64,000 bases of DNA from Oscillospiraceae bacterium (GTDB lineage Bacteria > Bacillota > Clostridia > Oscillospirales > Ruminococcaceae), in NCBI GenBank assembly GCA_021201135.1, contig JAJQGT010000006.1:223254-287253 (forward strand). The letters run 5' to 3'. Each line of letters opens with the position of its first letter. The stretch's first letter is position 1. Of the stretch, positions 1 to 17,957 are shown piece by piece. Position numbers and translations under genes: made by a program. Below the pieces are notes generated by a model that saw only the letters and a list, made by a program, of their open reading frames with translations, made no database searches and was not told where the DNA came from.

Positions 1-647
1 GTTGCGGCTGTTGTGGTTGCTTCTGTTACTACCGGGTCGTCATCAATAACTACTTCTTCTTCGGTTTCGCTGGTTGTGGTTACTTCGGCTTCAGCAGTGG
101 TAGTAACTGCTTCACTGTTATCATCGGAGTCACTGTCGTCATCGTCATCATTATCGGTGACAGCATTGGGATCATAGGTATTTCCCTCATCGTCTTCGAT
201 TACCAGGACGGTCGTGTTTCCGTTGACGGTAACAGCATTGCCGGAAGCATCTACGGCGTCGCTGATTTCAACGCTGATGTAGCACTGCGTATACTCATCG
301 GCAAGAGTCGTGAAAGTGATGGTAGCCAAAGTTCCGTTCAGTACACTTCCGCTACTGTTGCTGATAGAAAATGTTACGGTTCCATTGCTTGAACGAGGTG
401 TTGAAACCGTAGAGCTGTTGTAGCGTGACTTTACATATTTCAACTCACTTGAGTTATAAGTCAATGTTACAGTACCTGAAACAATTCCCACTTCGTCAGA
501 AATTGAAACTGTAACCGCAACCTCTTCGCCTTTCTTAGCGTTTGAAGTTGATGCGTTGACAGTTGAAACGGCAAAAGTGTTCACCGCCAGAACGGACATC
601 ATCACGGTTGCCAGTACGATACAGATTATTCTTTTTGTTTTCATCAT
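1..647 (-). CDS. Secreted cohesin-like domain protein (3' end outside window)
   Basis: This gene runs off the left edge; about 215 codons are visible. The start is ATG at 647 (a second in-frame ATG follows at 644), preceded by a GGGGAT-type ribosome site. Residues 1 to about 31 form a signal peptide (basic MMKTKR, then a hydrophobic stretch to NTFAVSTVNA). Residues about 32-150 are an all-beta region with the cohesin-like signature GEEVAVTVSISDE followed by GTVTLTYNSSELKYV. After that come an acidic linker (DDDDDSDSDD) and a Thr/Glu-rich tail, typical of cell-surface linkers. In ruminococci and clostridia such domains bind dockerins or anchor enzymes at the surface. A dockerin, further cohesin or anchor may follow beyond the window. 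Its divergent neighbour is an AraC regulator. The cohesin call rests on fold-like sequence patterns only. Confidence 0.72.
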   Translation of the reverse strand, partial: MMKTKRIICIVLATVMMSVLAVNTFAVSTVNASTSNAKKGEEVAVTVSISDEVGIVSGTVTLTYNSSELKYVKSRYNSSTVSTPRSSNGTVTFSISNSSGSVLNGTLATITFTTLADEYTQCYISVEISDAVDASGNAVTVNGNTTVLVIEDDEGNTYDPNAVTDNDDDDDSDSDDNSEAVTTTAEAEVTTTSETEEEVVIDDDPVVTEATTTAA

Positions 648-10309: not shown

Positions 10310-10331
10310 GGACAAAAGCAATAGTTTGTCC
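10310..10331. promoter_or_regulatory. Inverted repeat, probable TetR operator (copy 1)
   Basis: GGACAAA (10310-10316), 8 bp, TTTGTCC (10325-10331): a perfect 7-bp inverted repeat between the AI-2E gene and the divergent tetR gene. The same architecture with one mismatch recurs at 12911-12932. Confidence 0.7.
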
Positions 10332-10412: not shown

Positions 10413-10958
10413 GTGGCAGATTCGAATATCACAAAGCGTGCTCTTGCATCTTCGCTGAAAGAATTGATGACCGAAGAGCCTTTTTCAAAAATCAGTGTAA
10501 CCGATATCTGTGAAAGATGTGGGATGAACAGAAAAAGCTTCTATTATCATTTCGAGGACAAGTATGATCTTGTAAACTGGGTTTTCGATTCCGAGTTTTT
10601 GCTTCTCGTCAGAGATAACTCAGCAAAGACGAGTTGGGAACTTTTTGATGTTCTCTGCTATTACCTTTACGACAACCGCAAGTTCTACAAGCCTGCGCTT
10701 CAAATTGAAGGTCAGAACTCGTTTTCCGACCACTTCAGAGAAATGCTTCGTGTAACGTTGCGCTCGAGCTTTGGCGAGCTTTTGAACGAATGTGAAGACT
10801 TTCAGCTCAATTTTTATGCCGACGCTCTTGCTTGCACAATCGAAAGATGGCTTACTTCAAAGAAATGTGACACACCTGACGAGTTCTTAAAGAAGATTGC
10901 GTCCTGCGCTCGCTCGTTTTCAAAAATATCAGACAAGATTCTTCCTCCGGAAAACTGA
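10413..10958 (+). CDS. TetR/AcrR-family transcriptional regulator
   Basis: A 181-residue regulator. The N-terminal HTH (about residues 8-50) shows the TetR pattern: KRALASSLKELMTEEPFSKI, then VTDICERCGMNRKSFYYHFEDKYDLV. The C-terminal domain resembles the DhaS/TetR_C_7-8 type in low-GC Gram-positives; the ligand is unknown. Translation starts at GTG 10413 behind AGGGAGGA; an ATG two bases earlier is in another frame. It sits next to an inverted repeat found again upstream of the radical SAM genes, so it probably regulates itself, the AI-2E gene and the radical SAM/patatin genes. Confidence 0.9.
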   Translation: MADSNITKRALASSLKELMTEEPFSKISVTDICERCGMNRKSFYYHFEDKYDLVNWVFDSEFLLLVRDNSAKTSWELFDVLCYYLYDNRKFYKPALQIEGQNSFSDHFREMLRVTLRSSFGELLNECEDFQLNFYADALACTIERWLTSKKCDTPDEFLKKIASCARSFSKISDKILPPEN

Positions 10959-10965
10959 ATTTTTA

Positions 10966-11004
10966 CCCGTCGTTCAGGCTAAGCCAGGAACGGCGGGATT
11001 TTTT
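10966..11004. terminator. Bidirectional terminator between tetR and the patatin gene
   Basis: CCCGTCGTTC (10966-10975) pairs with GAACGGCGGG (10988-10997), one G-T pair, then a T tract. The right arm lies inside the last codons of the convergent patatin-like gene. Confidence 0.75.
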
Positions 11005-11818
11005 CTGCATCTCTGATCCCCTTCTGATAAAGCTTATCAAGGGGTTCTTTTTCTTTCGTCAGAGTGTCGACACCGCAGGTGTCATCGGGAGCAAGAATGA
11101 GAACCTTGCCCTCTGCCTCTAATTTCTTTGCCGTTTCAAGCTGAGAATTATAGTGGTCTGCTCTGCCGCTGATTCTTTCGGCAGAGACGGGATATTCTTT
11201 TCTGATTCTTTTTGCTATTGCAATGTCGCGCTTCGGAAGCCTTAAGACATCACGGGGTTTACTGAGAATCAGAACCACTCTATCGCATCCCATAGAGATT
11301 GCTTTCTCAACCGGAACAGGGTCTCCGAGGGCTCCGTCAAAGTACGGCTCGCCATCAACATAGTACGGTTTGTTGACATATGGAATTGAGCAGGAGGCTT
11401 TCACTATGTCGAGATTGTCCTGACTGATATAGTCCTTGGTGAAGTATTTTGCTTCGCCGGTTATTGCATTCTCGGCTACAACCAATAGCTCTGTGGGGTT
11501 AGCCAATAAGGCATCAAAGTCAAAGGGATACTCCCCATCCGCATTACTGAGCTTTCCGTAAATATAGTCCATATCTATGTATGAGCCTTTCCTGACGAGA
11601 TTAGAAAGGCTCATAGATTCTTTTCTTGCATTATATTCAGTGTAGAACATGTAATTTCTGCATTTCTGTCCTGCAAGAAACGTGCAGATGTTTGCGGCAC
11701 CGGCAGAAACACCGATTCCCAAGTCAAAGTTTATGCCATGCTCCATGCAATAGTCCATAACGCCGCAGGCGTAGATACCTCTCATTCCGCCGCCGACATC
11801 GACAATACCCGTTTTCAT
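10979..11818 (-). CDS. Patatin-like phospholipase family protein
   Basis: A 279-residue serine lipase-like protein of the RssA/YjjU patatin group. It has the oxyanion-hole motif DVGGGMRG (about residues 7-14), the nucleophile elbow GVSAG (about 36-40) and the dyad aspartate in DGALGDPVP (about 160-168), so the Ser-Asp dyad is intact. These enzymes are lipid acyl hydrolases acting on membrane phospholipids or acyl-thioesters. No signal peptide is seen, so it should be cytoplasmic. It lies 21 nt downstream of the cluster-less radical SAM homologue on the same strand and is very likely co-transcribed with it, which hints that the radical SAM pair acts on a lipid or an acylated substrate. Confidence 0.9.
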   Translation of the reverse strand: MKTGIVDVGGGMRGIYACGVMDYCMEHGINFDLGIGVSAGAANICTFLAGQKCRNYMFYTEYNARKESMSLSNLVRKGSYIDMDYIYGKLSNADGEYPFDFDALLANPTELLVVAENAITGEAKYFTKDYISQDNLDIVKASCSIPYVNKPYYVDGEPYFDGALGDPVPVEKAISMGCDRVVLILSKPRDVLRLPKRDIAIAKRIRKEYPVSAERISGRADHYNSQLETAKKLEAEGKVLILAPDDTCGVDTLTKEKEPLDKLYQKGIRDAEKIPPFLA

Positions 11819-11839: not shown

Positions 11840-12844
11840 TTACTTGACTGCTTTAGGATAGCACTTTTCAAAAATCTCTGCAAGCGCCTGATTTCTGAAA
11901 TTATACTCACGTTCGGAGTTACAAACGGAAATCAGCTTGCCGGATTCGTCGAATACAGCGATGCAAGAATCATCTGAAATTATTTCATCAACCATTCTGC
12001 ATGTTCCCGAGAATTCCATGGGAGTGCTTGCGGCAGTTCTTGTGTCTCTGAGTTCGCATACTTCTTTGTAAACGTCACTATAACCTGAGTAATCATCACC
12101 GGTTCTGACAAAGAAAGTCAGTACCGGATGAAGCTCATCCGCTGTGTTGAGAAGGTTCTCACACATAGGATTCTTATCGTACTCATACCACAACGAGTAG
12201 AGAGCTTTGTTACTTCTCAAATCCTCACATACTGCAATCGCTGAATCGGAATACTTGACACACAACATAAGATTCTTGATTTCGCTTGCCTGTGACAATA
12301 TCTCTTTTTCGATATTTTCGGCGTCCGAAAACAGCATAAAAGCACATTCCGTCTCATCGTCGAATATCTCCATGAGCTTTCCGGGAATGCTTCCGCAGAA
12401 GAAGACGTAGGTGTATATTCCCATCTTCTTTCCTTGTCTGATTGCTTCAGTGTATGCTTCCAGTGAGAATGATTTGTTATTAACATAGAATGTTATGACC
12501 CACGGGATATTATAACCACGTTCTTTTTCAAGATTTCTTATTGTTCTTGCACCGGCAGTAAAGCTGTTGTAGCCGATGTTCATTCCGAATTTTAGGATAT
12601 TTGCCGTTCCCACATTTTTGATTGCATCATGAATAAGTGCGTAATAAGGGCTGTTCTCGTCTTCGAGCATGGAATGAGCTATGCTCAGGAAATGCTTCTG
12701 AAACCTCCCTGCGGAGAGACCGAGTGCCAGATCGACGAGATTTCTTGATTCTCTGTCGGGATTGTCGCGCATGGCTTCAAGCTTCTTGCCGACATATGCT
12801 TCGATAATAGATTTTGCGTTGCTTTGAGTTGTTTTCTGTTCCAT
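11840..12844 (-). CDS. Radical-SAM-derived protein lacking the CxxxCxxC cluster loop (pseudoenzyme)
   Basis: This 334-residue protein would normally be called hypothetical. Aligned by eye with the divergent radical SAM enzyme at 13073-14431, it matches over most of its length. The N-terminal helical domains share NP..(N)LV and Y.L; IPW (113-115) matches VPW (104-106). SLEAYTEAIRQGKKMG matches SLETIDSIVKQGKELG, and ECAFMLFSDAENIEKEIL matches DCEFLAFTNGTLIDEDFC. Between IPW and SLE about 17 residues are missing, precisely the loop that carries CxxxCxxC in the partner, and the SAM-binding GGEP is changed to CGSIP. The first two SPASM-type cysteines appear kept (C282 and C294 or C308). It therefore cannot bind the usual cluster and may be a structural or regulatory partner. 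ATG 12844 has GAGGG just upstream. Confidence 0.7.
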   Translation of the reverse strand: MEQKTTQSNAKSIIEAYVGKKLEAMRDNPDRESRNLVDLALGLSAGRFQKHFLSIAHSMLEDENSPYYALIHDAIKNVGTANILKFGMNIGYNSFTAGARTIRNLEKERGYNIPWVITFYVNNKSFSLEAYTEAIRQGKKMGIYTYVFFCGSIPGKLMEIFDDETECAFMLFSDAENIEKEILSQASEIKNLMLCVKYSDSAIAVCEDLRSNKALYSLWYEYDKNPMCENLLNTADELHPVLTFFVRTGDDYSGYSDVYKEVCELRDTRTAASTPMEFSGTCRMVDEIISDDSCIAVFDESGKLISVCNSEREYNFRNQALAEIFEKCYPKAVK

Positions 12845-12910
12845 AAGAAACCCTCTTTCAAACAAAATTCAGACGTACTAATTATAAACTGCTGTCCTTT
12901 TTTTAAACAC

Positions 12911-12932
12911 GGGCAAATAAACTGTTTTGTCC
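12911..12932. promoter_or_regulatory. Inverted repeat, probable TetR operator (copy 2)
   Basis: GGGCAAA (12911-12917), 8 bp, TTTGTCC (12926-12932), in the region between the two divergent radical SAM family genes. Same half-sites and spacing as the copy at 10310-10331, with one mismatch in the left arm. Confidence 0.65.
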
Positions 12933-13072
12933 CGAAAAGTAACACTTTTTTGTGAGGTCCGATTTTACCACACTTTGTGCTTTTGTGTCCAATGACTTTT
13001 TTCTTTGCTTGAACTAAAATAATATAAAAGAAAGCGGAGAAATACTCTGCACACAAGAAAGGACAGATATAA

Positions 13073-14431
13073 ATGAAGAAAAATCTTCTTAAGAATTTCG
13101 GAATCAGGCAAGCATTCAACTACCTCGAGAAAAATCCCGAAGAGAATATTCCCAAGCTCGTTAATATGCTCGAGAAGAGCTATAACGGAGAGACATTCCA
13201 GAGGCAGATTGCAATTATCAAAAAAGCAGTCGAAGAAAAAAACAACTGGTATCAGCTCATGATGAAAATGTATGAGCTTGACCCGGGCGTTCGTAAAGCT
13301 GTTTTCGAAAATTTGCTTCTTAATGACAGTATAGACGGCTACGCCTATCAGCAGGAGATGTCGAAAAAGTATAACTGCAATGTTCCTTGGGCGATTCTTC
13401 TCGACCCCACGTCGGCATGCAATCTCCATTGTACCGGTTGTTGGGCGGCTGAGTACGGAAACAAGCTCAATCTGAGCCTCGAAACGATAGATTCTATCGT
13501 AAAGCAAGGCAAGGAGCTTGGTTGTTACATGTATATCTACACAGGCGGCGAGCCTATGGTAAGAAAGAACGATTTGATCAAAATTTGCGAGATGAATCCC
13601 GATTGTGAGTTCCTTGCGTTCACAAACGGTACGCTTATTGACGAAGATTTCTGCAAGGAGATGCTCAGAGTCAAGAACTTTGTTCCAGCTATCAGCCTTG
13701 AAGGCTTTGAGGATGCCAACGACTCGAGACGCGGCGAAGGCGTTTATGATAAGGTTCATAACGCTATGAAGCTGTTGAAGGATAACAAGCTTCCGTTCGG
13801 AATTTCTGCTTGCTACACATCGCATAACTGCGATGATATCACAAGCGAAGAATTCTTTGATATGATTATAGATGCAGGAGCACTCTTTATCTGGTTCTTC
13901 CACTATATGCCTGTCGGAAATGGCGCAGTAACAGAGCTTCTTCCCTCTCCCGAACAGCGTGAAAAAGTATGCAGAAGAATTAGAGATTATCGCAGTTCAA
14001 AGGCTATCTTCAGTATCGACTTCCAGAACGATGCGCAGTACATCGGCGGCTGTATCGCCGGCGGCAGAAAGTATCTACACATCAATGCAAAGGGCGATGT
14101 TGAGCCTTGTGTATTCATCCACTATTCAAATGTCAATATTCACGACTGCACGCTTCTGGATGCACTGAGGAGTCCCATCTTCCAGGCATACCATGATAAT
14201 CAGCCGTTTAATGATAACATGTTCAGACCTTGCCCGATGCTTGAAAATCCCGAAAAGCTGAGAGCCATGGTCAAAGAAACAAAAGCAAAGAGCACCGACT
14301 ATGAAAGCTACGAGAGTGCGGATCATCTTTGCGACAAGTGTGAAAGCTACGCCGAGAACTGGACACCTACAGCGGATAAGCTGTGGGACGAGGTTCAGAA
14401 GAAAAAAGCGGAGGCTAATGCCAAGGGCTGA
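13073..14431 (+). CDS. Radical SAM enzyme with SPASM-like C-terminus
   Basis: A 452-residue radical SAM protein. It has an N-terminal helical domain (1-100), then the radical SAM barrel with cluster motif C116-C120-C123 in SACNLHCTGC and the SAM-binding GGEP at 158-161. The C-terminal SPASM-like region has cysteines at about 327, 346, 387, 420 and 423 (CIAGG, VEPCVF, RPCPML, CDKC), likely binding one or two further iron-sulfur clusters. Such enzymes modify peptides, carbohydrates or lipids; the substrate is unknown. ATG 13073 follows AAAGGA. The gene is divergent from its cluster-less paralogue and a patatin-like lipase, with a shared TetR-type operator between them. No precursor-peptide gene was found beside it, so a RiPP role is less likely. 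Confidence 0.88.
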   Translation: MKKNLLKNFGIRQAFNYLEKNPEENIPKLVNMLEKSYNGETFQRQIAIIKKAVEEKNNWYQLMMKMYELDPGVRKAVFENLLLNDSIDGYAYQQEMSKKYNCNVPWAILLDPTSACNLHCTGCWAAEYGNKLNLSLETIDSIVKQGKELGCYMYIYTGGEPMVRKNDLIKICEMNPDCEFLAFTNGTLIDEDFCKEMLRVKNFVPAISLEGFEDANDSRRGEGVYDKVHNAMKLLKDNKLPFGISACYTSHNCDDITSEEFFDMIIDAGALFIWFFHYMPVGNGAVTELLPSPEQREKVCRRIRDYRSSKAIFSIDFQNDAQYIGGCIAGGRKYLHINAKGDVEPCVFIHYSNVNIHDCTLLDALRSPIFQAYHDNQPFNDNMFRPCPMLENPEKLRAMVKETKAKSTDYESYESADHLCDKCESYAENWTPTADKLWDEVQKKKAEANAKG

Positions 14432-14505: not shown

Positions 14506-14541
14506 ATCGGAGTCGTATTTTAGCGGCTCCGATATTTTTTA
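14506..14541 (+). terminator. Terminator of the radical SAM gene
   Basis: ATCGGAGTCG (14506-14515) pairs with CGGCTCCGAT (14524-14533), one G-T pair, followed by ATTTTTT. Confidence 0.8.
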
Positions 14542-14549
14542 TGTAATCT

Positions 14550-17243
14550 TTATTCGACCGATTTAAGGGATTCCGCCATATCAATGGCTGATATCTTCTT
14601 TCGCAATATCAGATCGGTTATAATTGCAAACAGTACTACAAGTATAACCGTGAATACGAAGCTCCATGGGCTTATAATTACTTTGAACGAGACCATGTCA
14701 ACTCTTATCTGAGACATGACAAACGCATGTAAGAGTACTCCAAGAGGTAATCCTATGACTATTCCCATGAGAGTGAGAACAATATTCTCTCTGAAAACGT
14801 AATCATTAGTCTCACTCTTTCGGAAACCGATAACTTTGATAGTGGCAATTTCTCTTGCACGTTCGGAGATATTGATATTTCCTAAGTTGAACATGACTAT
14901 CAAAGCAAGTGCGGCGGCACAGAGAAGAATCAGCAGGACAACATAGTTGAGACTCTGCATCATGTTGTCGATCATCTGCCTTGTGTCGTTTACAACGGTA
15001 ACGGTGGAAATGCCATCCATGTTCAGAAGAGCCGCGGAAACACTATAATCGTCGGCATCATCATTGAGTCTGAGCATAAGTGTTGAAGGCTCATATTCTT
15101 CTCCGAAAATCTCTTCATAGGCTTCGCCGGTCATGTAGATATAGTGCTGTACATAATTTTCTACGAGTCCTGAAACAGTGGCTTCAGCTGTTTCGCCTTC
15201 GGTGGTATAGACGGTAATGCTGTCCCCAACATCAACACCGAGCATTGAAGCAAGCTTTTCCGAAACCAGAACCCCGCCATCGGTAGGCAGTGAAATCTCC
15301 TCATCATCTAAGTGGAGACTTATCACATCGCTGAAATGCTCATCATCCGAGATGATATAGTACGCAGTCTTGTAGACATCATTGGCGCTGACGTCTGTCG
15401 AATAGGACATTGAAGTTGCCTGAGAGGAAATTGTGCCTGAAAGCTCATCGGAAATGTTTGCAAGATCCTCTTCTGTAATCTCGTCAGAGAAATTAACTGA
15501 GATATCATAGGTCAGAATGTCGTCAAACTGGAAGTTACCCAAATTGGCGATTGAGTCATTGATTCCGAAGGCAGTGAAGACGAGCGCCGTACATCCGGCA
15601 ATTCCCATAAGCATCATTACCATTCTCTTTTTGAATCGGAAAATGTTGCGGACGGTTACCTTATGCATGAACTTGAGACGTGACCAGATTGGTGTTATCC
15701 TCTCGAGCCATATTCTCTTTCCTGCAGGTGGTGATTTCGGTCTTATAAGGTTTGCCGGTGGGCACTTGAGAGCGCTTCGGCAGGCTATAACAGTTGGACC
15801 CACAGAGCACAGAAGCGACAGCACAAGCGACACTGCGAAATATCCCGCATTGAATATGTAAACAAAGCCTTCGATGTTATAGAGTATGGTATACGCTTTG
15901 ACTATAACAAGAGGGAACAGGAAGCTTCCGGCAAAATATCCGACTACACTTCCTATCACGGCAGCAGTTCCGGAATAGATTATATACTTTGAAAGTATTG
16001 CACCCTTACCGTAGCCTAAAGCGCTCAGTATTCCTATCTGGGTTCTTTCATCGTCTACCATTCTTGTCATTGTGGTTGAGCATACGAGTGCCGCAATCAG
16101 GAAGAAGAATATCGGGAGAAGCCTTGCGACATTGCTGACAATCAGCGAGTCGCTCTCGAATGTCACATAGCCCGAATTGATACTTCTTGTGAAGGTATAG
16201 AGCTCGGGCTCTTCAAGATCGCCAAGCTCGGCTCTTGCGTCAGCGATTTCAGCCTCAGCATCGGCTACTTCAGATTCAAGCTCTGCAACACCATCCTCGT
16301 ATTCTGCAAGACCGTCGTAATACTCAGCCCAAGAATCTTCAAGGTGGATTCCAAGGCTTTCATACTCTTCAAGGATTGTAAGCGCGTCCTGTAGCTCCGC
16401 CCAAGCATCGTCAAGCTCCTGCTGGGCTTCTGCTCTGCTTTCTTCAAGCTCAGCCTCAGCGTCTGCGATTTCGGCTTCGGCATCTGAAACGATTCCGTCA
16501 AAGCGGGAATTTATTATTGCTTCGGTCTCATCCCCTACGAGTTCAGAAAACGAGTCTATCATGTCGTTGTACTCGTCGGTATAAGGGTCGTATTTCTCGG
16601 TGCTTGTAACGTATACTTCCGTGTAGTATTCGCTGTTGAAGCCTTCCTCGGGGATGATTATGAAGCCAGTAACACTTCCGCTTCCCAAGGACGTTGTGCC
16701 TCTCGAGATGTCCAGATACAACGGTGAGCGACAGATTCCAACTATTGTATACTCGGTGTATGCAAACGTATCAAGAGTGTCTTCGTCGTTGCTGTCAGAG
16801 ATGACTATGGTTGTGCCGATGTCATCTTCCGAGAATTCCTGTGAGTCAGCAAGGCCTTCGTTCGCTGATTCCGGCATACGACCCGAGATAAGCTGAGGCT
16901 CGTTTACACCCTCAGTCAGCATCATCGCGTGATAGACGTATTCATCACTGCCTATTTGGGTGATAAAATCGGCATTTATTGAGCCGACTGCGGTTTCTAC
17001 TTCGTCTATTTCCGAAATCTCTTCGATATCTTCGTCTTCGAAGCCTATGGTTGAAATAAGTCTCAGATCGTAAAGCTTAGTCTCTTCGAGATACTCAAAT
17101 TCGACTGCGAGCATTGAGGAACAGGTCTGCCGGAGCCCTGCAAAGAAAGCAACTCCGAGCATGATAATGAGCATTATGGCTATGTATCTGCCCATACTCC
17201 CGGCTATGCTTCTTCTGATGTTTTTACTATAAGCTTTTTTCAT
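14550..17243 (-). CDS. Large FtsX-like ABC transporter permease
   Basis: An 897-residue ABC permease with two FtsX domains. There is one helix near residues 15-35, a large extracellular domain that includes a Glu/Ala-rich coiled coil at about 250-350 (repeated AEAEIADAEAELEESRAE type heptads), a first three-helix FtsX bundle at about 370-500, a second extracellular domain, and a second FtsX bundle at about 780-890. Proteins of this layout do not import solutes; they act in lipid or lipoprotein handling, antimicrobial peptide resistance or mechanical coupling across the envelope. The ATPase gene lies 9 nt upstream on the same strand. The exact role is unknown. Confidence 0.9.
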   Translation of the reverse strand: MKKAYSKNIRRSIAGSMGRYIAIMLIIMLGVAFFAGLRQTCSSMLAVEFEYLEETKLYDLRLISTIGFEDEDIEEISEIDEVETAVGSINADFITQIGSDEYVYHAMMLTEGVNEPQLISGRMPESANEGLADSQEFSEDDIGTTIVISDSNDEDTLDTFAYTEYTIVGICRSPLYLDISRGTTSLGSGSVTGFIIIPEEGFNSEYYTEVYVTSTEKYDPYTDEYNDMIDSFSELVGDETEAIINSRFDGIVSDAEAEIADAEAELEESRAEAQQELDDAWAELQDALTILEEYESLGIHLEDSWAEYYDGLAEYEDGVAELESEVADAEAEIADARAELGDLEEPELYTFTRSINSGYVTFESDSLIVSNVARLLPIFFFLIAALVCSTTMTRMVDDERTQIGILSALGYGKGAILSKYIIYSGTAAVIGSVVGYFAGSFLFPLVIVKAYTILYNIEGFVYIFNAGYFAVSLVLSLLCSVGPTVIACRSALKCPPANLIRPKSPPAGKRIWLERITPIWSRLKFMHKVTVRNIFRFKKRMVMMLMGIAGCTALVFTAFGINDSIANLGNFQFDDILTYDISVNFSDEITEEDLANISDELSGTISSQATSMSYSTDVSANDVYKTAYYIISDDEHFSDVISLHLDDEEISLPTDGGVLVSEKLASMLGVDVGDSITVYTTEGETAEATVSGLVENYVQHYIYMTGEAYEEIFGEEYEPSTLMLRLNDDADDYSVSAALLNMDGISTVTVVNDTRQMIDNMMQSLNYVVLLILLCAAALALIVMFNLGNINISERAREIATIKVIGFRKSETNDYVFRENIVLTLMGIVIGLPLGVLLHAFVMSQIRVDMVSFKVIISPWSFVFTVILVVLFAIITDLILRKKISAIDMAESLKSVE

Positions 17244-17252
17244 ATCGGTCTG

Positions 17253-17957
17253 TCACCACTCAATATTCTCGACGGGAACGACATGGTCGTTCAGCTTGAC
17301 CGAATGAATGGTTCCGCTCTTGACACGAATGATTCTGTCCGCCATTGCTGAAAGAGCAGAGTTATGAGTTATGATGACAACTGTCATGCCGTCATTACGA
17401 CAGCAATCCTGCAAGAGCTTTAGGATGGATTTACCTGTCTCATAATCAAGGGCGCCGGTAGGCTCATCGCATAGTAGTAGCTTCGGCTTTTTGGCAAGTG
17501 CTCGGGCTATAGAAACTCTCTGCTGTTCTCCGCCGGAAAGCTGTGCCGGGAAGTTCTCGAGTCTGTGGGAAAGCCCGACAGCCGTCAAGGCTTCCTTTGC
17601 CGGGATCGGGTCTTTGCAGAGCTGAGAGGCAATTTCGACATTCTCAAGTGCTGTAAGATTCGGTATCAGGTTGTAAAACTGAAATACAAAGCCGATATCA
17701 TGGCGGCGATAGTTGACGAGGTCGTCTTTTTTGAGACTGCCGACGTCGTTACCGTCCATAATTACATTTCCGCTTGTAAGGGTGTCCATTCCGCCGAGGA
17801 TATTAAGAAGTGTTGTCTTCCCCGCTCCCGACTCTCCGACTATTACGCAGACCTCGCCTTTTTCAATCGTAAAGCTTGCTTCCGACAAGGCTTTTACTTC
17901 AACGTCGCCTGTTTTATATATCTTTGTTACTTTATCAAATTCAATAAATGAACTCAT
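17253..17957 (-). CDS. ABC transporter ATP-binding protein (MacB/LolD type)
   Basis: A 234-residue ATPase of the LolD/MacB class. It has Walker [10 protein letters not shown] (about 38-46), Q-loop FVFQFYN, signature LSGGEQQRV, Walker [13 protein letters not shown] and switch histidine ITHN, so it should be fully active. It energises the large FtsX permease 9 nt downstream. ATG 17957 follows AGGAGTG. No two-component genes are adjacent, unlike many bacitracin-type systems. Confidence 0.95.

Follow-up and report, generated by a model that had tools for sequence, protein, structure and literature searches.

A cluster-less radical SAM paralogue kept beside, and at times without, its intact relative in Bacillota

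Much is known about pseudoenzymes among kinases and proteases. Described counterparts of the gene pair reported here belong to NCBIfam family TIGR04150, members of which, as reported in PMC4573289, pair with TIGR04148 or TIGR04085 in Bacteroides clusters, the GG-Bacteroidales cassette containing a peptide precursor. We analysed a 64,000-nucleotide stretch of DNA (the window) from an Oscillospiraceae bacterium (GenBank assembly GCA_021201135.1, contig JAJQGT010000006.1, positions 223,254 to 287,253), which comes from a draft genome of 2.3 Mb (G000:C9). An initial annotation of the window had pointed to two divergent open reading frames (ORFs), and both were confirmed: a 334-residue pseudo-radical-S-adenosylmethionine (SAM) protein on the reverse strand, here called PS, and a 452-residue radical SAM enzyme on the forward strand, here called EN, which lie head-to-head and are transcribed in opposite directions. 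Our literature search returned nothing recognisable as the PS family and little on cluster-less radical SAM proteins beyond family names, one query being swamped by 'pseudo-sample'.

The initial annotation had aligned the two proteins by eye from the N-terminal helical domain through the barrel, and profile-profile comparison bore out homology over both domains. BLASTP matched PS to EN over about 190 residues (E = 2e-9), and hhalign of 20 PS against 13 EN sequences gave a probability of 99.9 and E = 1.5e-35 over 319 columns at 16% identity, with homology spanning PS residues ~12-327. Taken separately, the barrel gave E = 5e-25, against 0.26 for its reversed control, and thereby relates PS to the partial (beta/alpha)6 barrel of a radical SAM member; the N-terminal domain alone gave E = 2.1e-14. 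Nine of ten profile controls (two reversed profiles, two cross-domain comparisons and six unrelated neighbour families) stayed at a probability of 0.2 or lower. The tenth, the N-domain against its own reversed profile, reached 41, and the N-domain match is therefore less clean than that of the barrel. The sole other match of PS in the window's genome at E <= 10 was EN. Scanning of 20 PS sequences against Pfam yielded no match at E <= 1 in any of them, PF04055 included; the same 20 gave no credible NCBIfam match, only five scattered hits (E 0.035-0.22, one member each) to unrelated families, and the PS profile found no PDB chain at E <= 1. These comparisons establish PS, as read from its sequence, as a disarmed paralogue of EN. 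An AlphaFold model of PS built with near copies only was uninformative (pLDDT 41.5); with EN rows added it reached 58.2, with blocks of residues 121-240 at 70-88 and the N-domain mostly below 60. Because EN rows stood in its alignment, the radical SAM matches of this model are not independent proof. Neither a different fold nor an unconserved pair was encountered, the fold being read indirectly from the one usable model, which was built with those EN rows.

We then compared what the two proteins retain. The initial annotation held that about 17 residues were missing from PS, exactly the CxxxCxxC loop, and that GGEP had been replaced by CGSIP. The loop is indeed gone, with a gap of 15-17 residues by alignment (EN 117-131 in one, 17 columns in another): CxxxCxxC occurs in none of 49 PS ORFs (43 plus six from other classes) and in 50 of 53 EN ORFs, the remaining three being fragments. 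The loss nevertheless goes further than proposed: a second and a third loop are gone, and so is the remainder of the SPASM region. In 15 paired loci, 80% or more of the PS sequences are without EN residues 117-131, 217-225 and 276-285 and without almost the whole of 370-452; from the general family layout, loops 217-225 and 276-285 would be on the side of the barrel that faces the substrate. None of the conserved PS positions corresponds to EN residues C327, C346 or C387, which are invariant in 13 EN rows. GGEP has likewise been lost, but CGSIP is confined to the window: near copies carry CESIP, CKGIP and others, and distant PS proteins show differing residues around a short gap at this position. 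PS has lost the [4Fe-4S] cluster loop, two more loops and a C-terminal part with the predicted auxiliary-cluster cysteines.

PS is nonetheless under purifying selection, with dN/dS values of 0.06-0.15 in nine comparisons versus 0.02-0.03 for EN in six, dS being saturated in several. Together with the recurrence of the divergent pair described below, this agrees with the earlier suggestion of a pseudoenzyme kept beside its active relative. Conservation is distributed differently in the two proteins. Over 15 pairs (near copies in three cases), identity in the N-domain was 0.47 for PS and 0.45 for EN; in the barrel it was 0.26 and 0.73, respectively. Among positions conserved in at least 93% of sequences, 18 of 26 in PS and 19 of 191 in EN fall within the N-domain, and R31, R34 and D38 were present in all 35 PS rows, with EN differing at these positions. 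What PS has kept, on this evidence, would be the helical N-domain, which in EN probably binds a substrate or partner.

These measurements bear on two alternatives. Fast barrel evolution and the lack of a Pfam or credible NCBIfam match could be taken as signs of decay, in which case PS would be a functionless duplicate or a mis-called ORF; the present results contradict this, since the dN/dS values are low, PS is intact in all ten window-lineage copies and a single PS clade extends across a phylum, and we regard such decay as barely conceivable. That PS is an enzyme performing new, non-radical chemistry in its emptied barrel appears highly improbable: barrel homology is retained, with the caveat that the supporting model drew on EN rows, but this is the fast-evolving part of the protein and holds few conserved residues, most conserved positions lying in the N-domain.

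The distribution of the two genes was surveyed at three levels. In a family sample of 197 genomes, the 29 matches were sorted by hand into PS and EN, and EN of this type was taken as matches of at least 650 bits. PS was present in 20 genomes, EN in 21 and both in 12, so that EN occurred in 12 of the 20 genomes with PS and in 9 of the 177 without it (an odds ratio of 28 with p = 5e-9, counted by hand and uncorrected for kinship). Neither PS nor EN was matched in the other two genomes that this sample contains from the window's genus, and the nearest named PS relatives come from draft genomes of Oscillospiraceae and Ruminococcus. Across the class sample, the PS profile was matched at E <= 1e-6 in 82 of 391 genomes, mostly via EN-length frames; the 14 that reached E <= 1e-60, the window's included, did so through frames 333-407 residues long. 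In the phylum sample, seven of 398 matched at E <= 1e-45, namely the window's genome and six outside the class.

Gene order was examined in the window and 33 further PS loci, 34 in all, with the near copies L003-L011 dropped from synteny counts; L112, a weak and short PS of 290 residues, is among these loci but not among the 35 conservation rows. Where 1.5 kb or more was available upstream, EN lay head-to-head with PS in 13 of 29 loci; where 2 kb or more was available downstream, a TetR gene of the module type lay tail-to-tail with PS in 22 of 31. Counted by genome, EN was head-to-head in 13, near but not head-to-head in one (L058), elsewhere in seven and not found in 13. In the six genomes of other classes, EN was head-to-head in five (the copy in L164 being broken) and not seen in one, and TetR was within the fetched stretch in five. 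The divergent pair, whose presence elsewhere the initial annotation had proposed as a check, therefore recurs in other genomes and in other classes of the phylum.

Phylogenetic analysis placed PS and EN on opposite sides of a branch with 100/100 support in a tree of 63 rows, and this branch was also fully supported in a 78-row quick tree. The long-branch PS rows L054, L056, L058, L060 and L109 were dropped from the former and kept in the latter; eight further EN rows were left out of the 63-row tree, and L003, L004, L006, L008, L009, L011, L112 (PS), L113 (EN) and EN ORFs below 400 residues are absent from both. The PS and EN distance matrices agreed with r = 0.88 over 21 pairs and, without near copies, with r = 0.87 over 18 pairs, none of 2000 permutations being as high in either case. 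The TetR tree has the same order as that of PS for the window group, and all 23 PS-adjacent TetRs fall within one 27-row set (branch support 95), whose four other members include one beside EN without PS (L127). A genome of another family, G472, falls within the window's group in all three trees (PS, EN and TetR), even though its PS and EN are on different contigs; this points to the whole set having been transferred together. The occurrence of head-to-head pairs across the phylum and the large agreement among the three trees show that the PS-EN pair is old and has been inherited with the TetR gene.

The initial annotation had favoured an active/inactive heterodimer, in which PS would be a subunit or scaffold that EN requires in order to be active or to bind its substrate. 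Such a complex is consistent with the recurrence of the divergent pair throughout the phylum, the agreeing PS and EN trees, the single control region and the strong co-occurrence. However, EN was not found in 13 of the 34 PS genomes first collected, these being drafts of 89-100% completeness, nor in 14 of 40 after the six genomes of other classes were added, so that co-occurrence is not obligate; conversely, nine of the 21 EN genomes in the family sample are without PS. Within the window lineage, PS was intact in ten of ten sequences and EN was broken or missing its start in three (L005, L009 and L011). Since the sequences are mostly metagenome assemblies, some of these breaks are possibly assembly errors, but the damage differs in type (a short deletion, single-base deletions and a missing 5' end). 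In L164, from another class, EN is broken and the adjoining PS intact. PS conservation was also independent of EN: identity was 0.44 in the N-domain and 0.27 in the barrel for PS of EN-less genomes (12 rows), and 0.42 and 0.23 for PS of EN-bearing genomes (23 rows). Since PS persists without EN with its N-domain conserved alike, its role does not need EN, and since some relatives keep PS only, PS probably has a job of its own. The heterodimer is thus unsupported in the form proposed, and we consider it unlikely.

At the position of EN in L045 (9577-9960), we observed a 127-residue ORF that begins EN-like and continues as a different sequence, either a remnant or an assembly join; its later stretch presumably resembles part of S-adenosylmethionine synthetase.

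Upstream regions revealed a candidate operator, GGACA-N12-TGTCC, which in the window is perfect 5' of the TetR gene and carries one mismatch between PS and EN. In the near copies L003-L011, the PS-EN palindrome is perfect in nine of nine and the TetR palindrome in seven of the eight with TetR on the contig, the exception being L006, which has an over-long ORF start and where no copy was found. Loci of several other families are without the motif. When every perfect 5-base palindrome with a spacer of 4-16 was counted, this motif proved to be the most shared palindrome 5' of PS (9 of 34 loci, the next best in 4, with 280 of 334 palindromes confined to a single locus) and, counted separately, as the most shared 5' of TetR (7 of 36, the next best in 3). 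These data strongly suggest that TetR controls both its own gene and the divergent PS/EN promoter through this predicted operator, to which it would bind. With a shared predicted operator, PS and EN would therefore be made under the same condition.

The same motif marks a further gene in some lineages. A P-type ATPase is present in 11 listed loci, and the motif, with at least nine of ten bases, stands at or before its start in eight (L041, L046, L047, L049, L050, L052, L099 and L104), perfect in six and often common to a divergent TetR; the other three ATPase neighbours (L053, L056 and L100) have no motif in front. For three ATPases tested, the best models were calcium types, two passing the PMCA cut-off and the third falling slightly short. 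Because copies at nine of ten bases also occur inside genes, including several in L047, single sites of this quality are weak.

Two wider readings are not claimed. For a regulon beyond the locus in the window's genome, the six sites with at most one mismatch comprised two in the module, three intragenic and one intergenic without a clear target. For a wide regulon, a longer operator pattern in 14 genomes was only partly above its reversed control (5 versus 5 in G134 and 2 versus 4 in G272). A promoter scan gave 7 sigma-70-like sites versus 7.0 expected and was not used.

The tie to TetR raises another alternative, that PS is a ligand sensor or co-factor of TetR (an anti-repressor or co-repressor) and EN one gene controlled by the circuit. 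PS adjoins TetR (22 of 31, tail-to-tail) more often than it adjoins EN (13 of 29, head-to-head), PS-adjacent TetRs form one group, and PS is kept with TetR and the operator where EN is gone, as in L050 and L052; in L046 the operators remain, and the stretch fetched contains no TetR. On the other hand, nine of 31 PS loci are without a tail-to-tail TetR, L127 has this type of TetR beside EN with no PS in the stretch, and TetR regulators normally bind their ligand themselves. We judge this alternative distinctly improbable.

Several other observations concern the regulator and its motif. The PS-EN gaps of L107 and L108 have no GGACA motif but share palindromes whose arms read GTGTAAAG and TTTACAC, which may represent a diverged operator for a regulator of the same type. 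At L151:1323-4280, another TetR gene lies beside a 703-residue membrane protein, which we take to be YhgE-like, with a similar palindrome, TTTAGACA-N12-TGTCTAAA, 5' of the membrane protein gene. FtsH protease genes (FtsH_fam above cut-off) adjoin the module TetR in L099 (11145-13019) and L100 (4843-6666).

Taken together, we propose with moderate confidence that PS is a non-catalytic binding protein that senses, holds or presents the ligand or target of EN, or regulates the pathway, even where EN has been lost, and that it is not an obligate subunit. In this model, a signal would release TetR, leading, as the operator suggests, to production of PS and EN together. EN would then carry out radical chemistry on its substrate, and PS, unable to hold a cluster in the known way, would bind through its conserved helical N-domain; binding, sensing or presenting around the ligand of EN is the best fit for PS. 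A facultative PS-EN complex, or action of PS on TetR, is also conceivable. More tentatively, PS may found a new Bacillota family of repurposed radical SAM proteins in which the helical domain does the work (with R31, R34 and D38 as its PS-specific charged signature) and the barrel is a disarmed scaffold, PS acting as a stand-alone binder or sensor in a TetR regulon with a dispensable EN and, in several lineages, a calcium-type P-ATPase.

Some points weigh against our proposal of a non-catalytic binding protein. The matching trees are confounded by genome kinship and, with the strong co-occurrence, are equally compatible with a physical complex. The binding role of the PS N-domain is a guess from conservation alone. 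The PS-EN palindrome in the window itself is the copy with a mismatch, and the operator is unrecognisable in many loci outside the window lineage (such as L103 and L105-L111), where shared control is consequently read from gene order only; a tail-to-tail TetR is also missing from those nine of 31 loci with enough sequence. Finally, the sample consists of draft genomes, with many near copies from metagenome assemblies, and some absences or breaks of EN are possibly gaps or errors.

Table 1. Features of the PS-EN locus; positions are those of the window unless given as residues.
Feature	Position	Strand	Basis or remark
PS, 334-residue pseudo-radical-SAM protein	11840..12844	-	ORF; homology to EN; purifying selection
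PS N-terminal helical domain	residues ~1-115		AlphaFold model, low-to-middling confidence
PS loop-trimmed barrel	residues ~116-280		AlphaFold model, low-to-middling confidence
PS hairpin	residues ~290-310		AlphaFold model, low-to-middling confidence
EN, 452-residue radical SAM / SPASM-like enzyme	13073..14431	+	ORF; CxxxCxxC C116, C120, C123; GGEP 158-161
TetR-family regulator (TetR_C_8, DhaS-like)	10413..10958	+	Tail towards patatin and PS
Patatin-like phospholipase with DUF6363	10979..11818	-	3' of PS, same strand, 21-base gap
Operator-like palindrome, PS-EN gap	12911..12932	.	9/10 core bases of GGACA-N12-TGTCC
Operator-like palindrome 5' of TetR gene	10310..10331	.	10/10 core bases
Terminator-like stem-loop after EN	14506..14533	+	Consensus match only

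The features of the locus are listed in Table 1. The TetR regulator scored 127.9 bits against TIGR02366, slightly under the cut-off of 129. The patatin-like gene is kept in nine of nine near copies and in L042, and is near PS also in L112; given the short same-strand gap, PS and patatin are probably co-transcribed. An ABC transporter pair (a large permease and an ATPase) at 14550-17957 is directed at the EN end and retained in the window lineage.

EN scored 62.6 bits against PF04055 (cut-off 29.5) and, with its CxxxCxxC motif, is a radical SAM protein; against SPASM PF13186 it scored 21.3 bits, just below the cut-off of 21.5, and its match to TIGR04347 (pseudo_SAM_Halo) was weak (60.2 bits, cut-off 525). 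Among the matches listed, the closest solved sequences were SkfB and an anaerobic sulfatase-maturating enzyme. Two candidate functions were considered. EN as a membrane-spanning lipid synthase (Mss/Tes) was considered because of its lipid-type neighbours, namely patatin (window lineage, L042 and L112) and a DegV-type gene (L042, L108 and L113); Mss is reported from Clostridia (PMC13274423). The likeness consists in these neighbour genes. The PDB sequence matches listed for EN include no Tes chain, and this identity is accordingly not claimed. The DegV-type (fatty-acid-binding-like) gene adjoins EN in all three loci, the DegV match having been tested in L042 only. For EN as a maturase of ribosomally synthesised and post-translationally modified peptides, no small ORF common to nine PS-EN gaps was seen among the first four ORFs per gap; an unlinked precursor is possible.

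We also observed a second, shorter radical SAM family related to EN (frames of ~353-404 residues, E 1e-62 to 1e-74), located at G000:C20:67861-68793 and in 15 other genomes of the family. It seems to be without most of the N-terminal domain, because most matches begin at EN residue 80-102.

In summary, the PS family offers many pairs of an enzyme and its disarmed twin, natural losses of EN and a predicted operator, so that the question of what a dead radical SAM protein does becomes testable. It also draws attention to a radical SAM subfamily in Clostridia that is as yet uncharacterised and for which TetR offers a ready inducer screen.

With regard to known systems, EN is the nearest reference for PS, sharing its two-domain layout, with CxxxCxxC, GGEP, loops 217-225 and 276-285 and the C-terminal cysteines in EN only. 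The PS model resembles the peptide-modifying radical SAM/SPASM enzymes SuiB (5v1s) and SkfB (6efn) at 12% identity, PS being without the cluster and GGEP loops and the model having a pLDDT of 58 with EN rows used. The suggestion in the initial annotation that such a pairing is rare needs care, since NCBIfam already holds the pseudo-radical-SAM families TIGR04150 and TIGR04347. Like PS, TIGR04150 (pseudo_rSAM_GG, of the GG-Bacteroidales cassettes) is a pseudo-radical-SAM protein coded beside a radical SAM protein; no match to it was found among 20 PS proteins at E <= 1 or in the window's genome at E <= 0.001. TIGR04347 is likewise named as a pseudo-SAM/SPASM protein, and none of the 20 PS proteins matched it at E <= 1. 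Unlike the TIGR04150 cassettes, the PS family belongs to Bacillota, and its link is with TetR instead of a peptide precursor. Pseudo-radical-SAM proteins beside radical SAM proteins are thus an already known kind, within which the PS family is, at the level of sequence, distinct from both TIGR04150 and TIGR04347.

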